Shown here: positions 26,900 to 33,919 of the stretch, one piece after another
How the letters are laid out: each line of letters starts with the position of its first letter
How positions within the stretch are numbered: position 1 is the first letter of the stretch
Assembly: GCA_947588985.1 (NCBI GenBank)
Contig: CANQBG010000006.1
Location: 1 to 61,220, forward strand
Direction: 5' to 3'
Length of the DNA stretch: 61,220 nt
From: an uncultured Clostridia bacterium
Lineage (GTDB): Bacteria > Bacillota > Clostridia > Christensenellales > Borkfalkiaceae
Made by a program: the position numbers and the translations under genes
Notes under the pieces: model-generated
Told to the model about the DNA's origin: nothing
Database searches by the model: none
The model's input: the letters and a program-made list of their open reading frames with translations, nothing else

Positions 26900-26984
26900 A
26901 GAGAAGGACATTTCACACGATTTTCACGCGCCGATAAAGGGAATGTTATTTACAGACAGTATAATAAAGAATAAGGAGCGAGCC

Positions 26985-27650
26985 ATGAAGATTTTGATCG
27001 TAGACGACGAGGAGATGATCCGCAACGTCCTCCGCGAATATGTGGAGTTCGAGGGCGGGGAGGCCGACGAGGCGCAGGACGGTATGGAGGCCGTGAAGAA
27101 GTGCCGCGAGACGGAATACGACGTCGTGCTCATGGACATCATGATGCCCAAGCTCGACGGCTATTCTGCCGTCAAGGAGATCCGCAAGTTTTCCGCGGTG
27201 CCCGTCATCATGCTCTCCGCGCGCGGGGAGGAATACGATAAGCTCTTCGGCTTCGAGATCGGCTCGGACGACTATGTCACCAAGCCCTTCTCGCCCAAGG
27301 AAGTGATGGCGCGCATCCATGCCGTCACCCGCCGCGGCAAACAGCAGTCGGCGGGGAGCGAGATCTATGAGTTCGAGGGCCTCAGGATCGATATCACGGG
27401 GCGCAACGTCTATGTGGACGGCGAGAAGATCGAGCTCACGCCCAAGGAATACGAGCTTCTCTTTTACTTTGTCCAGAATGCCGGCGTCGCGCTCACCCGC
27501 GAACGCCTTTTGAGCAAGGTGTGGGGGTATGATTTTTACGGGGACGACCGCACGGTGGATACCCACGTCAAGATGCTCCGCGGGAACTTGAAGGAATATC
27601 GGAAGTTCATCGTCACCCTGCGCGGTCTCGGCTATAAATTTGAAGTTTGA
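26985..27650 (+). CDS. OmpR/PhoB-family response regulator
   Basis: The 221-residue cytosolic regulator has a receiver domain with Asp7-Asp8, phospho-acceptor Asp51 (VLMDIMMP) and Lys100 (YVTKPF), then a winged-helix DNA-binding domain from about 128 (ELTPKEYELLFYFV, WGYDFYGDDRTVDTHVKMLR). AAGGAG precedes the ATG. The cognate kinase follows 103 bases later. The target genes are unknown, but the exported protein at 29255 is the obvious local candidate for a signalling partner. Confidence 0.95.
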   Translation: MKILIVDDEEMIRNVLREYVEFEGGEADEAQDGMEAVKKCRETEYDVVLMDIMMPKLDGYSAVKEIRKFSAVPVIMLSARGEEYDKLFGFEIGSDDYVTKPFSPKEVMARIHAVTRRGKQQSAGSEIYEFEGLRIDITGRNVYVDGEKIELTPKEYELLFYFVQNAGVALTRERLLSKVWGYDFYGDDRTVDTHVKMLRGNLKEYRKFIVTLRGLGYKFEV

Positions 27651-27753
27651 CGCAAAACGGGCATACCATGTCCGAAAGATAGCGTTCGATTTTTAGAACC
27701 TCGCCATATTTTGCGGCGGGGGAGAGAGCCCGGATGCGGGCGGGAGAGAGAAT

Positions 27754-29214
27754 TTGAAGAATGCAGCAAAACCCAAAAAGACGGGGACGGGCAGGAGCCT
27801 GAACCTCCTTTTATGGTTTTCCTTTTCGGTGTTTGCGCTCGTCATCGTCGTCATCTTCATGACGGTGCAGAGCCTCTTGGTGGGCGCGCAATACCGCGAG
27901 CAGACGCTCGAACTCATGAAAACGGCGTGTAAAGAGATGCAGGCCGTTTTGGGGGACGCTGAGGAGGAAATTTCCCTCTCCGTATGGCGCCGCCTCCGCG
28001 ATATCTCCGAGGAGTACGACGTCAACGTCCATCTCCTCTATCCCGACGGGCGGAGCGTCTTTTCCGACGGCGTGGAGGAGGAGACCTACCCCGAGATCGC
28101 AGACAGCATCAAACAGCACCTGCACGCAGACGCCGCCGAAGTCGTCATCAGCGAGGGCCACATCCTCGCCTATGCCGTCCATATCACCTTGAGCGGCTCC
28201 TCCCAGCCCTGTTTTCTCTACTTTTCGAGCTCGCTCGCCCGCCTCGATTCTCTCGAGAGCAGTCTGCGTTGGCTCACGCTCGCCACGGCGCTCTTCTCCG
28301 TCGTGCTCGCCTTCGTCGCCAGCGGCTTCGTGGCCATGCTCATCACCAAGCCCGTCACTGAAGTCACCGAGCGCGCCAAGGAACTCGCGCGCGGCCGCTA
28401 CGATCCCGCCTTCCGCCGCGACTACTTCTGCCGCGAGATCTCCGAGCTCTCCGACGCGCTCGACTACGCCTGCCGGGAGATCTCCCGCGTGGATACCATG
28501 CAGAAGGAGCTCATCGCAAACGTCTCCCACGACTTCAAGACGCCGCTTACCATGATCAAGGCCTACGCCTCCATGATCCGCGAGATCTCGGGGGACAATA
28601 AGCAAAAACGGGATACCCATGTCCAAATCATCATTGATGAAACCGACCGTCTCACCGAACTCGTCAACGACGTTTTGGACCTCTCCAAACTGCGCGCGGG
28701 CGGGCTTTCGGAGCCTCCCGTCGCCTTCAATCTCTCCGAACTCGTCTATCAGATCGCGGGCCGCTTCACCTATCTCAAGGAGACCAAGGGCTACCGCATC
28801 GAGACGGAGATCGAGGACGAGCTCTATGCCTATGCCGTGCGCGGCCGGGTAGAGCAGGTCGTCTACAACCTCATCGGGAACGCCGTCAACTACACGGGCG
28901 AGGACAAAGTCGTCCGCATCCGGCTCTTTCGGACCGGCGAAGGACTGCGCTTCGAAGTGGAGGATACGGGCAAGGGCATCCCCGAGAGCGAGCTCGACAG
29001 TATCTGGGACCGCTACACCCGCGGCGCGGAGACGCACACGCGTCCGGTGCGCGGCACGGGGCTGGGGCTCTCCATCGTCAAGGGCATCCTGCTCGCGCAG
29101 GGCTGTCCCTTCGGCGTGCGCTCCGAATGCGGAAAGGGGAGCGTATTCTGGGCGGAATTTTCGCCGCCCCCGGAGGATGAGAAGGAACCGTCGCATGCAA
29201 TTTCCAAGGAATAA
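27754..29214 (+). CDS. Sensor histidine kinase
   Basis: The 486-residue kinase starts at TTG (27754), 8 bases after GGGAG. It has a first transmembrane segment (about 18-42), an extracytoplasmic sensor of about 120 residues, a second segment (about 170-195), a HAMP linker, HisKA with the phospho-His in ANVSHDFKTPLTM near residue 260, and HATPase_c with N box LIGNAVNY, G1 VEDTGKGIP and G2 GTGLGLSIVKG. It phosphorylates the upstream response regulator. The signal is unknown. The 103-base gap between the two holds one copy of the ATACCATGTC motif. Confidence 0.93.
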   Translation: MKNAAKPKKTGTGRSLNLLLWFSFSVFALVIVVIFMTVQSLLVGAQYREQTLELMKTACKEMQAVLGDAEEEISLSVWRRLRDISEEYDVNVHLLYPDGRSVFSDGVEEETYPEIADSIKQHLHADAAEVVISEGHILAYAVHITLSGSSQPCFLYFSSSLARLDSLESSLRWLTLATALFSVVLAFVASGFVAMLITKPVTEVTERAKELARGRYDPAFRRDYFCREISELSDALDYACREISRVDTMQKELIANVSHDFKTPLTMIKAYASMIREISGDNKQKRDTHVQIIIDETDRLTELVNDVLDLSKLRAGGLSEPPVAFNLSELVYQIAGRFTYLKETKGYRIETEIEDELYAYAVRGRVEQVVYNLIGNAVNYTGEDKVVRIRLFRTGEGLRFEVEDTGKGIPESELDSIWDRYTRGAETHTRPVRGTGLGLSIVKGILLAQGCPFGVRSECGKGSVFWAEFSPPPEDEKEPSHAISKE

Positions 29215-30854: not shown

Positions 30855-30963
30855 CAAACCACCTGAGTGGAAAGAAAGTCTGACTGCGAAGGGCAAAGGT
30901 ATCATCTGCAAAGCGGCGCGTCCGCATTTGCCTCCTTTTGCTCTGCGCAAAGGGAGGTTTTTT
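30855..30963 (+). promoter_or_regulatory. Structured leader with terminator that also hides the ribosome site; possible riboswitch
   Basis: The leader of about 100 bases contains CCAC/GTGG (30859-30870 hairpin), a GGCAAA ... TTTGCC pairing that encloses a GCGG/CCGC hairpin, and then an 11-bp terminator stem CCTCCTTTTGC / GCAAAGGGAGG (30931-30957) followed by six T, with the ATG directly after. The GGGAGG ribosome site is the 3' arm of that stem. I do not recognise it as a TPP, SAM, cobalamin, fluoride, guanidine-I or lysine aptamer; GGGCAAAG and TGCAAAGC recall parts of the c-di-GMP-I fold but the middle hairpin is absent. Confidence 0.6.
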
Positions 30964-31218
30964 ATGTCCGAACAAGCGGAGGAGACCCGGCTCGCCGTGC
31001 TCTCCATCCTCGTGGAGGCGCGGGAGAGCGCTTCGGCCGTCAACGCCTATCTTTCGGAATACGGCGCATACATTGTGGGAAGAATGGGCATTCCTTATCG
31101 TGAGAAGGGAGTCTCCGTCATCTCCGTCGTGCTCGACGCCCCCCTCGGCGCCATCAACGCGCTTTCGGGCAAGCTTGGGAAGCTTCCCGGCGTCTCCGCC
31201 AAGTCCCTGTTCCGCTGA
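30964..31218 (+). CDS. TM1266-family ACT-like protein
   Basis: An 84-residue protein (ETRLAVLSILVEARESASAVNAYLSEYGAYIVGRMGIPYREKG, read in pieces: ILVEAR, LSEYGAYIVGRMGIPY, VSVISVVLDA) matching the TM1266 family, small ACT/NikR-C-like proteins annotated as putative regulators of the iron-only hydrogenase system. Its biochemical role is unproven. Being first in an ABC importer operon, it may sense the imported ligand. Its start sits right after the T-run of the attenuator. Confidence 0.85.
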   Translation: MSEQAEETRLAVLSILVEARESASAVNAYLSEYGAYIVGRMGIPYREKGVSVISVVLDAPLGAINALSGKLGKLPGVSAKSLFR

Positions 31219-31273: not shown

Positions 31274-32347
31274 ATGAAACACATTCTCAAAGTGACTCTT
31301 GCCGCCGTACTCTGCGGCGCTGCCATCCTCGGCGCCTCCGCCTGCGCCTACGATGCCGACCTGTCCCCGTCGCCCGCGCCCGGCGCGCGCTGCTTCGATA
31401 TCGCGGGCAGCCTTCAAGCGCTTTACGGCACGAACGGCTATCCGCAGGCCGTGCTCGTCGCCAAGAATTCCGTCATCGAAGGAGACCCTGCCGCCGTCGC
31501 CGCCATGATCTCCTATATGGAAGGGGCGGATGAGTATCTCGCCTCCGCCGATCCCGCGGCCGTCGTCTCGGGGCTTACGGGCTGCTACGCCGAGGGTCTC
31601 ACTCCGTCGCTCAACGCCAAGAACCTCACGAAAGAGGTCATCAAGAACTGCTCGGTGAAGTTCACCCCCGCCAAGGAGGCCAAGGAGACGGTGGACGCCT
31701 TCCTCGCAAAGCTCATCGCCGTCGATGAGACCTTCACCTCCGCCGCCGACGCGTCCTTCTACTACGAGGGCGGCGCCCAAGCGGGGACGATCGCGGGCAA
31801 ATATGCGGTGTACGCGCCCGACGGCGCGCCCGCCCTCGCCCTCGCCTATGCCGTCTCCGAGACGGAAGGGGAGGCCTTCACCTATCACGTCGTCGCGGCA
31901 AACACCATCGCCGCGCAGGTGACGGGGGAGACGCCCAAGGCCGACTTCTGCGTGCTTCCCGTCAACGCCGCCGCGAAGCTCCTCGGCAAGGGGACGAGCT
32001 ATAAGATGCTCGGCGTCGTCACCAACGGCAATATGTACTTCATCCGCTCGCACAACGACCTCGGAAACGTCGAAAAGGGGAGCCTTGCCAAGCTCAAGGG
32101 GCTGACGATCGGCGTCGTCCAGCTCAACAACGTCCCCGGCCTCACGCTGCAGGCCGTCTTGAAGGAGGCGGGCGTGGACTATCAGATCATCGACAGCAAC
32201 GCTCTTCCCGCCGAGGATAAGGTCAACCTCATCGCCTTTGCCGACGCCTCCACCGTGGGCCCCGCCGCAGGGTGCGATTACTACCTCTGCCCCGAACCCG
32301 CCGCAACGGCCAAGGTGACGGCGTTCCAAGCCCAACAATCCAAGTGA
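31274..32347 (+). CDS. ABC importer substrate-binding lipoprotein with swapped halves
   Basis: The 357-residue lipoprotein (ASAC lipobox, Cys24) belongs to the type 2 NMT1/SsuA-like binding proteins commonly found after TM1266-type genes. In those proteins the mature N-terminus begins with a YxPDGAPALALA motif, followed by DLKGKTVGV-like and PEPAA motifs in the middle, then GxLQALYGxxGYPQAVLVAK and a C-terminal FYY. Here GSLQALYGTNGYPQAVLVAK comes first (45-64) and SFYY at 161-164, then YAPDGAPALALA (180-191), LAKLKGLTIGV (271-281) and PEPAA (340-344) at the end. This order implies a circular permutation. All motifs look intact. The ligand is unknown. Confidence 0.85.
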   Translation: MKHILKVTLAAVLCGAAILGASACAYDADLSPSPAPGARCFDIAGSLQALYGTNGYPQAVLVAKNSVIEGDPAAVAAMISYMEGADEYLASADPAAVVSGLTGCYAEGLTPSLNAKNLTKEVIKNCSVKFTPAKEAKETVDAFLAKLIAVDETFTSAADASFYYEGGAQAGTIAGKYAVYAPDGAPALALAYAVSETEGEAFTYHVVAANTIAAQVTGETPKADFCVLPVNAAAKLLGKGTSYKMLGVVTNGNMYFIRSHNDLGNVEKGSLAKLKGLTIGVVQLNNVPGLTLQAVLKEAGVDYQIIDSNALPAEDKVNLIAFADASTVGPAAGCDYYLCPEPAATAKVTAFQAQQSK

Positions 32348-33087
32348 AGAAGAACCTCCTCTTTTCCGTGCTCGCCATCGCCGCGATGTGGCTTCTATGG
32401 CTCGTCGCCTATGCGATCGTGGGCAACGACTACCTCCTTCCCTCCTTCTGGGAGATGTGCAGGGAGCTCGGGCGGCAGCTTTCGGATGCCGCCTTTTGGC
32501 GCGCCTTCGGGGGAACGCTTCTCCGCACGCTCACGGCCTTCGCGCTCGCCTTCGTCTTGGCTATTTTCTTGGCTTCGTGCGCCTCTCTTTCAGACATGGT
32601 ACGGGCCTTTCTCGCCCCGATCGTCTCCGTCCTCCGCACTGTACCCACGATGGCGATCATTCTCATCCTGCTTTTGTGGACGTCTCACGCCGCCGCGCCC
32701 GTGCTCGTCTCCCTCCTCGTGCTCCTGCCCGCGCAGTATGCCGCGATGCTCGCGAGCCTCGATGAGGTCAAGGGAAATTACGGCCTTCTGTGCCGCGCCT
32801 TCAAGGTGAACGCCGCGCGGAAGATCTTCAAGCTGTATCTCCCCCTTGCCGCGCCCTCCGTCCTCGCGCAGGTGGGGCCCATCCTCTCGATGGGGCTCAA
32901 GATCACCGTCTCGGGCGAGGTGCTCGCGCAGACCTTCCAAAGCCTCGGCGGCGCCATGCAGGATGCCCAGCTCAGCCTCGAGATCCCCACGCTCTTCGCG
33001 CTCACCGTCCTCGTCGTGTTGCTCGGATTCCTACTCGAGGGGCTGTGCCTTCTCGTCTCCAAACTTCTCGTGAGGTGGCGGACATGA
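32344..33087 (+). CDS. ABC importer permease (SsuC/ThiX type)
   Basis: The 247-residue membrane protein starts at GTG overlapping the binding-protein stop (GTGA). It has about six hydrophobic segments and the EAA-type coupling segment, here CRAFKVNAARKIFKLYLPLAAPSVLAQ in the region of residue 155-180, with the family-typical GLKITVSGEVLAQ after it. It resembles permeases of sulfonate/taurine/thiamine-precursor importers. It is sandwiched between and coupled to the binding protein and ATPase genes. Confidence 0.92.
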   Translation: MKKNLLFSVLAIAAMWLLWLVAYAIVGNDYLLPSFWEMCRELGRQLSDAAFWRAFGGTLLRTLTAFALAFVLAIFLASCASLSDMVRAFLAPIVSVLRTVPTMAIILILLLWTSHAAAPVLVSLLVLLPAQYAAMLASLDEVKGNYGLLCRAFKVNAARKIFKLYLPLAAPSVLAQVGPILSMGLKITVSGEVLAQTFQSLGGAMQDAQLSLEIPTLFALTVLVVLLGFLLEGLCLLVSKLLVRWRT

Positions 33088-33752
33088 CGCTCGACCACGT
33101 CACAAAAAAATACGGCGATCGCGCCGTCCTCAACGACGTCTCCCTCACCCTCGCGGAGGGGAAGATCACGGCCGTGCTCGGGGAGAGCGGGGCGGGCAAG
33201 ACGACCCTCCTCAATATCCTCGCGGGCCTGACGACGTGCGAGGGCACCGTGAAGGGGAGGGGAGCGGTCTCCTACCTCTTTCAAAACGACTGCCTCCTGC
33301 CGCACCTTTCGGCGGAGAGCAACCTGAAATTCGTCCTCCCCAAAAAAACATGGGGGGAGATCGGGGAGATGCTCGTCCGCGTCGGCCTCAAGGGCAAGGA
33401 AAAGCGGCTCCCCGGCGCACTCTCTGGGGGGGAACGCCGGCGCGTCGCCATCGCCCGTGCCTTCCTCTACCCGCACGACTTCTTGCTCCTCGATGAACCC
33501 TTCTCCTCCCTCGACCTCGCCTTAAAATCCAAGCTCATCGAGCTCGTGGCGCACCTGCATGCGGAGCGGGGCGGGACGGTCGTCTTTGTCACGCACGACG
33601 TCCACGAGGCCGCCATGCTCTCTCATCGCGCCCTCGTCTTAAAGGGCGGGAAGCTCGTCTGTGACCTTGCAAACGACGGCGCGCTCCCCCGCGACTTCCT
33701 CTCCCATCCTCCCCTCGAGGACGAGCTGATCCGCGTCCTCATGGGCCCATGA
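33084..33752 (+). CDS. ABC importer ATP-binding protein (SsuB/ThiY type)
   Basis: The 222-residue ATPase has Walker A GESGAGKTT (about 33-41), Q-loop YLFQNDCLLPH, signature ALSGGERRR, Walker B FLLLDEPFSSLD and H-loop VFVTHDVHEA. It overlaps the permease by ATGA and ends at the terminator at 33773. It energises the same importer. It is slightly short (usual 240-260) because the C-terminus lacks extra segments. Confidence 0.94.
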   Translation: MTLDHVTKKYGDRAVLNDVSLTLAEGKITAVLGESGAGKTTLLNILAGLTTCEGTVKGRGAVSYLFQNDCLLPHLSAESNLKFVLPKKTWGEIGEMLVRVGLKGKEKRLPGALSGGERRRVAIARAFLYPHDFLLLDEPFSSLDLALKSKLIELVAHLHAERGGTVVFVTHDVHEAAMLSHRALVLKGGKLVCDLANDGALPRDFLSHPPLEDELIRVLMGP

Positions 33753-33772: not shown

Positions 33773-33801
33773 AAAAAACTCCCGACAAGGGAGTTTTTTT
33801 G
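33773..33801. terminator. Bidirectional terminator after the ABC importer operon
   Basis: AAAAAACTCCC / GGGAGTTTTTTT with a 5-base loop; symmetric A and T tracts allow use from both sides. Confidence 0.85.
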
Positions 33802-33892: not shown

Positions 33893-33919
33893 AAAAAACT
33901 CCCAACAAGGGAGTTTTTT
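33893..33919 (-). terminator. Terminator of tRNA-Thr
   Basis: Same hairpin as at 33773 (CTCCC / GGGAG with A6/T7 flanks), immediately after the tRNA CCA on the minus strand. Confidence 0.85.

Follow-up and report, generated by a model that had tools for sequence, protein, structure and literature searches.

Repeated relocation of protein ends in a TM1266-linked binding lipoprotein: a very probable natural circular permutant and its relatives

Natural circular permutation has mostly been inferred from comparisons of distant proteins, which makes the way it starts, and any cost it has, hard to test. Among DNA methyltransferases, permutations are old splits at the level of classes. Permuted forms of these enzymes with documented duplication intermediates have been described (Jeltsch 1999 and Bujnicki 2002, cited in PMC3320104), and the parts of PMC3320104 drawn on here treat permutation by duplication and permutation by fission and fusion as accepted models alike. 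A permuted binding protein is already known as well, a precedent that goes beyond the preliminary description of the present locus: TpMglB-2 (Tp0684), the glucose-binding lipoprotein of Treponema pallidum, for which the class 'Type Ic / cluster Bc' was proposed, and whose homologues of the same topology occur in treponemes and in Gram-positives, many of them gut commensals (PMC4990184, sections used here).

The window, meaning the whole stretch of 61,220 nucleotides analysed here, carries an operon in the order TM1266, binding protein, permease, ATPase. The second gene, an open reading frame at 31274-32347 (+), encodes a lipoprotein of 357 amino acids. We consider it very probable that this gene is a natural circular permutant in a TM1266-linked importer operon, and one of many relocations of the termini in the order. 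The features of the locus are as follows.

30964..31218, + strand: first operon gene, for a putative TM1266-family regulator of the iron-only hydrogenase system (TIGR03959, PF21699)
31274..31345, + strand: signal peptide and relaxed lipobox up to Cys24, residues 1-24 (by pattern only)
31394..31765, + strand: block B, residues 41-164, the canonical C-terminal half, now first (BLASTP to L009; profile mapping)
31766..31801, + strand: peptide joining the former C- and N-termini, residues 165-176, EGGAQAGTIAGK (site-1 congeners)
31802..32323, + strand: block A, residues 177-350, the canonical N-terminal half, now last (BLASTP to L009; hhalign)
32324..32347, + strand: new C-terminal tail and stop, cut site 1 (junctions compared with congeners)
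32344..33087, + strand: ABC permease (PF00528, 45.6 bits vs 26.4)
33084..33752, + strand: ABC ATPase (PF00005, 107.8 bits vs 25)

The TM1266 linkage asserted in the preliminary description holds: the TM1266 gene, its start codon picked by eye, lies directly upstream, and its product scores 102.9 bits with TIGR03959 (cut-off 60.8) and matches Pfam PF21699 at E 4.5e-29. The GTG start of the permease gene, whose product is nearest to SaoP, overlaps the stop of the binding-protein gene. The signal peptide, the lipobox (by a relaxed pattern only) and the adjoining permease and ATPase genes are those of an ABC-importer lipoprotein, and the role of the product is most likely ligand capture for the importer. 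The neighbourhood is shared by both forms of the gene in the order, where one locus from outside it, L366 (G506), is included in the counts: a permease gene lies directly downstream at 74/74 permuted loci with room for it and at 172/172 canonical loci, TM1266 upstream at 63/74 and 143/169, and the ATPase gene downstream at 16/20 and 53/55, respectively. Outside the order, the permease follows in 24/26 loci and TM1266 precedes, by this profile, in 5/25 only. No plasmid records encoding a relative were found, and the word TM1266 was absent among the matches listed in a literature search on TM1266 with hydrogenase and ABC transporter.

Several further elements flank the operon. A terminator-like hairpin with a T-run at 30930-30958 (+), just 5' of the TM1266 start (30964), might attenuate transcription of the importer genes, such sites being about as many in shuffled sequences. 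Two near-identical AAAAAACTCCCTTG...GGGAGTTTTTT hairpins (33773-33799 and 33893-33919) lie 120 bases apart, 3' of the ATPase gene. The segment 29177-30649 encodes a secreted-looking protein of 490 amino acids with no Pfam match at E 0.001, and directly upstream of it is a two-component system (26976-29211).

From the N- to the C-terminus, the window protein consists of the signal peptide, Cys24, a short tether, block B, the joint peptide, block A and a short tail. The reading frame and the motifs on which the preliminary description had based the exchange are all found at their reported positions: LQALYGTNGYPQAVLVAK at residues 47-64, SFYY at 161-164, YAPDGAPALALA at 180-191 and PEPAA at 340-344, with the C-terminal end 13 residues beyond; LAKLKGLTIGV occupies residues 271-281. 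Both halves are present and each is intact, in swapped order. Comparison of 18 permuted proteins with the 12 nearest canonical congeners places the new termini within the canonical PEPAA...LQxLYG loop and revealed, by eye, no loss of a conserved segment at the cut. The cut is clean: the loop ...KLNATASSANPFKLAGSLQ... of the canonical protein L007 is the source of both new ends, and the permuted protein L004, with the C-terminus ...KVAATAGK and the N-terminus ...SSNAFRFAGDLQ, splits the loop seen in L007 between them. Direct repeats within the window gene gave no sign of a junction scar. Cys24 is invariant in 18/18 aligned permuted proteins of the genus, and the joint peptide is of similar length and partially conserved among site-1 congeners. 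A linker of about 12-15 residues connects the old termini, with the signal peptide and the lipobox remaining in front, and the proposal of a natural circular permutation that keeps both is borne out by the sequence and by its relatives.

The two-block off-diagonal pattern suggested as a check in the preliminary description was obtained by BLASTP against L009, a canonical congener: residues 177-348 match 31-203 with 111/174 identical positions (64%), and a piece at 6-166, the real part of which is 36-166, ends at subject position 338 with 89/171 identical (52%). As follows from a permutation, only a single block of 183 columns was aligned by hhalign (probability 100%) between the profile of 18 permuted rows (A2) and that of 21 canonical rows (A3, one row of which is L227 from another genus). 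The gene was matched in 95/103 genomes of the window genus, and the window protein as a query was collinear, that is, found in its permuted order, in 18 of the 95 gene-bearing genomes among the matches listed; the remaining matches run from block A to block B, save a few contig-end fragments (G017, G103, G110). Close homologues thus display both orders, contrary to the possibility, raised at the outset, that all share a single one. The window protein shares 51-86% identity with the 17 further permuted proteins in the alignment. When the first 107 loci were sorted by their reading frames, 20 came out permuted, 85 canonical and 2 undetermined, in collections that share duplicates. The 77 loci fetched from the genus belong to the series Lapin, BRZ, Chicken, Sheep_Colon and others, and the permuted ones include L041 (Candidatus Gallimonas merdae). 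The order is probably Christensenellales, and Candidatus Gallimonas is classified by NCBI under Clostridia incertae sedis. Many species of the window genus carry the permuted gene, with a single copy per genome seen in the searches.

When 396 genomes from the order, mostly draft assemblies, were searched, 203 had a match, and the matches listed include collinear permuted ones outside the window genus. Block profiles revealed that the cut points differ, and these were then placed by a doubled canonical profile. After the removal of identical rows and of eight low-coverage loci (L084, L102, L107, L136, L288, L289, L302, L328), 283 distinct proteins comprise 207 canonical ones, 23 cut at site 1, 47 at site 2, 4 at site 3 and 1 at site 5, together with L170 ('site 4'), in which the last strand is located at the N-terminus. 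The interior cuts fall at profile columns ~177 (site 1), ~133 (site 2), ~88 (site 3) and ~20 (site 5). The canonical count includes L306, L307 and L308 of genus g67, which have the canonical order and lack the last strand (FYY region). With a single-copy canonical profile, 207/207 canonical proteins give one full domain, and 23/23 site-1, 47/47 site-2 and 4/4 site-3 proteins give two, with their order swapped; the cases with small segments, sites 4 and 5, give one domain. Among residue-shuffled proteins, 0/1415 matched the doubled profile, which, with the recurrence in genomes of the genus, rules out a chance origin of the swapped order. Permutation has occurred repeatedly in the same orthologous gene across one order, at four interior loops and in one last-strand case, a result that extends the single exchange described earlier to other loops and to related genera and families.

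The permuted forms are unevenly distributed. With the doubled profile A1, site-2 coordinates were found in 37/90 matching genomes of genus g26, 36 loci of which were fetched, the 37th (G959) being cut by its contig; one of those fetched, L328 (G974), has an in-frame stop, a sign of decay or a sequence error. The same profile gave 10/59 permuted in family f32 (six at site 1 and four at site 3), four site-2 cases, one site-5 case and L170 among 41 in family f3, G342 and the contig-cut G980 among 33 in family f24, and 0/42 with permuted coordinates in family f6, where G474 is a partial match. In f1 (261 genomes, 239 with a match), permuted members of g28, g29 and g273 were found among the matches listed, and one permuted member of g27 among those listed in the order-wide search. 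One protein, L227 (G421, f3, g67), was labelled g1 in the scripts; with this corrected, the canonical rows number 66 in g1 and five in g67. Some apparent permutations proved spurious: in L009, L050, L250, L366 and others, signal peptides or upstream sequence were aligned to the end of block B, and all of these were classed as canonical on inspection or with the single-copy profile. In L366, a long Ala/Thr-rich stretch precedes the binding domain.

Outside the order, permuted coordinates were found in 0/134 genomes with a match, drawn from 49 genomes of the class and 88 of a phylum sample, three of them shared; 29 of the 134 were checked at the residue level and are all canonical, and the rest were judged by coordinates, some from partial matches. 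A few of these rows cross the copy boundary or jump between copies, keeping the canonical order. The canonical order is therefore very likely ancestral.

The cuts follow common rules. Among canonical members, the four cuts have a mean indel rate of 0.170, compared with 0.052 for random positions (p 0.0037), and lie at percentiles 98.7 (site 1), 93.2 (site 2), 77.6 (site 3) and 73.4 (site 5) of the indel rate; the canonical locus L366 from outside the order is counted here too. Columns 22-27, 90-96, 132-139, 175-182, 248-253 and the C-terminus make up the 40 positions with the highest indel rates, and 4/5 of the interior peaks are at a cut or a few columns from one. At the sequence level, the termini are relocated at or near indel-rich loops, with a joint peptide present. 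The length of the joint is about 14-15 residues whatever the cut: the medians are 14 for site 1 (range 0-15, the shortest value coming from the gappy row L039), 15 for site 2 (6-18) and 14.5 for site 3 (14-16), and the single site-5 case has 17. Signal peptide and relaxed lipobox pattern were found in 265/283 proteins, including 23/23 for site 1, 45/47 for site 2, 4/4 for site 3 and 1/1 for site 5; in L170 and the two site-2 proteins missed by the pattern, a signal peptide with a lipobox was seen by eye. Permuted genes are under purifying selection, with dN/dS of 0.08-0.36 in 8/8 pairs. Canonical and permuted proteins within one genus reach up to 76% identity, and 88% in the case of L170. Covariation in the rotated alignment (235 effective sequences) places couplings on both sides of site 1 (169-185, 163-186) and site 2 (130-142, 132-144), and no pair linking the first 40 to the last 39 columns ranks above 42nd; this lends the permutation weak support at most.

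We have little doubt that the product would still fold and work as a nutrient-binding lipoprotein. If the type II topology applies, the lipid anchor would have left the N-terminal lobe for the other one or for the hinge. Such a shift might itself have been selected, by improving the docking or the opening of the tethered protein. The restriction of permuted forms to one order speaks for this, as does the short distance from the cysteine to the fold in site-2 proteins (median of 3 residues against 10 in canonical ones), and anchoring is raised as a possible reason by the authors of the TpMglB-2 work (PMC4990184, sections used here). The anchor, however, ends up in different places with different cut sites, and both forms coexist within one genus, which leaves an adaptive relocation a tentative reading, somewhat doubtful as a general explanation.

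Permutation by duplication is the mechanism that fits best, and each permutation probably arose in this way. An in-frame tandem fusion would form by loss of the inner stop and of the second signal peptide; the first part of copy 1 would then be deleted behind the retained signal peptide, and copy 2 would subsequently be truncated. A candidate for an intermediate is found in genus g67. Its site-2 proteins have the strand SVYYD, then a peptide ending in GxGSG, then YVPDGAP; in L170, a strand and a joint peptide of this kind are found at the N-terminus, and the strand is missing from the C-terminus. The canonical L307, 88% identical to L170, lacks 60 bp at that place, lying exactly between two direct repeats. 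L170 looks like a half-resolved tandem fusion from which most of copy 1 would have been deleted, a single case in which the direction of change is read from the sequence. The alternative of fission and fusion, or of segment cut-and-paste, is unlikely. It is an accepted model just as duplication is, and no complete tandem fusion was found among the matches listed in the searches of genus, family, order, class and phylum genomes. Yet L170 has the form of a partial intermediate expected from duplication, and block profiles over the reading frames of 185 loci gave no split halves. Block A alone was seen in 4 loci and block B alone in 0; of the four, L102 is cut off by the end of its contig, and L132, L170 and L172 hold both blocks by a later profile. 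Two apparent split genes, G915 and G916 (f3), were set aside, as their two frames break at unknown bases of the assembly.

The number of origins was approached with trees of rotated proteins. A FastTree tree of all 283 proteins requires 18 state changes, and a protein tree of 108 rows requires 20, its well-supported branches implying at least 7 changes for site 2, at least 3 for site 1 and at least 2 for site 3. For each of the two commonest cut sites, the AU test rejects a single origin, both on the protein tree (site 1 p 1.6e-37, site 2 p 7.5e-11) and, independently, on the tree of the permease, a gene that is not permuted (104 of the 108 rows; site 1 p 0.0086, site 2 p 1.7e-57). The permease tree requires 26 state changes against 20 on the protein tree, and this greater scatter implies a part for transfer or for errors in the trees. 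Among the 62 rows of the window's family, a single site-2 clade is rejected (p 1.1e-4), and the supported branches of a careful tree force at least 6 site-2 changes and at least 8 changes between canonical and permuted overall; at least 7 of the latter kind are forced outside the family. In the window genus, the careful tree has two site-1 changes in 200/200 bootstrap trees because the canonical L007 nests inside, and a single site-1 clade is compatible with the AU test (p 0.8), the constrained tree being even better. The long branches of L171, L182 and L211 make their individual placements unsure.

It is improbable that this pattern goes back to a single old permutation for each cut site, later spread by horizontal transfer or masked by reversals. 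Canonical proteins are nested among permuted ones in g75, g87 and g1, as reversals would give, and the window genus taken alone agrees with one origin by the AU test. Some changes may therefore be reversals, which leaves the count of origins approximate; any reversal, however, is a further permutation. Beyond the rejected clades, the nearest canonical protein shares the genus label for all 40 permuted proteins listed, of 76; L169 (f24g64) is 62% identical to a canonical congener against 32% to the nearest protein of its own type; and family f6 and the genomes outside the order are devoid of permuted coordinates. The candidates for reversal are the canonical L298, L299 and L360 (g75) and L364 (g87), nested among permuted congeners. 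The N-terminus of L299 resembles that of site-3 proteins, perhaps a reversal scar.

Beyond recurrent permutation by duplication, a broader picture has about even chances of being correct, in which the chain ends drift freely in the order: tandem fusions would be frequent and resolved in different loops, members of the same genera would show canonical, four or five permuted, and re-permuted or reverted forms, and the anchor would be moved between lobes. That the permuted genes are decaying pseudogenes is very improbable; the in-frame stop in the one permuted relative, L328, stands against intact frames, the dN/dS values given above and the conservation of motifs and operon. A misassembly or chimeric contig with its junction near 31.8 kb, a concern of the preliminary description that a draft assembly of 69 contigs and 83.5% completeness does invite, is ruled out for practical purposes because the permuted order recurs in 18 genomes of the genus from at least three independent assembly series (Lapin, BRZ, Chicken), with 17 further proteins at the identities given above, open frames, an intact signal peptide and purifying selection.

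The assignment to NMT1/SsuA-like binding proteins in the preliminary description stands in part: canonical relatives show weak matches, to SsuA_fam in 5/21 (best E 3.3e-5), to SaoB in 3/21 and to NMT1_2 in 1/21, and the window protein itself reaches no Pfam or NCBIfam cut-off and fits no curated family. Profile annotation can thus miss permuted proteins. A relative of canonical order with a solved structure is PDB 3hn0 ('nitrate transport protein'): the canonical profile matches it collinearly (E 5.5e-9), and the permuted profile matches it weakly (E 0.0083) with the order swapped. The occurrence of canonical and permuted versions in the same genera, with several cut sites, provides a natural test of moving the ends of a protein, in which the number of events, the intermediates, the rule of joint length and the effect on a lipid-anchored transporter are measurable; if the chain ends do drift freely, it would be a natural terminus-scanning experiment. 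Among the matches listed in a search of open-licence literature, which included few subscription papers, none reports that a single orthologous binding protein was permuted repeatedly.

TpMglB-2 resembles the window protein in being a natural circular permutant and a lipidated binding protein of an ABC importer (PMC4990184, sections used here). No TpMglB-2 chain appeared among the matches listed in sequence searches of the PDB. The fold of TpMglB-2 is of type I (cluster B), a fourth hinge included, and the protein represents one permuted class (same source and sections), whereas the window family is weakly NMT1/SsuA-like and has had the same gene re-cut at several loops. The DNA methyltransferases are likewise a family with permuted forms (PMC3320104, parts drawn on here). 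In the family described here, unlike in the methyltransferases, the difference in order separates congeners and affects one orthologous gene.
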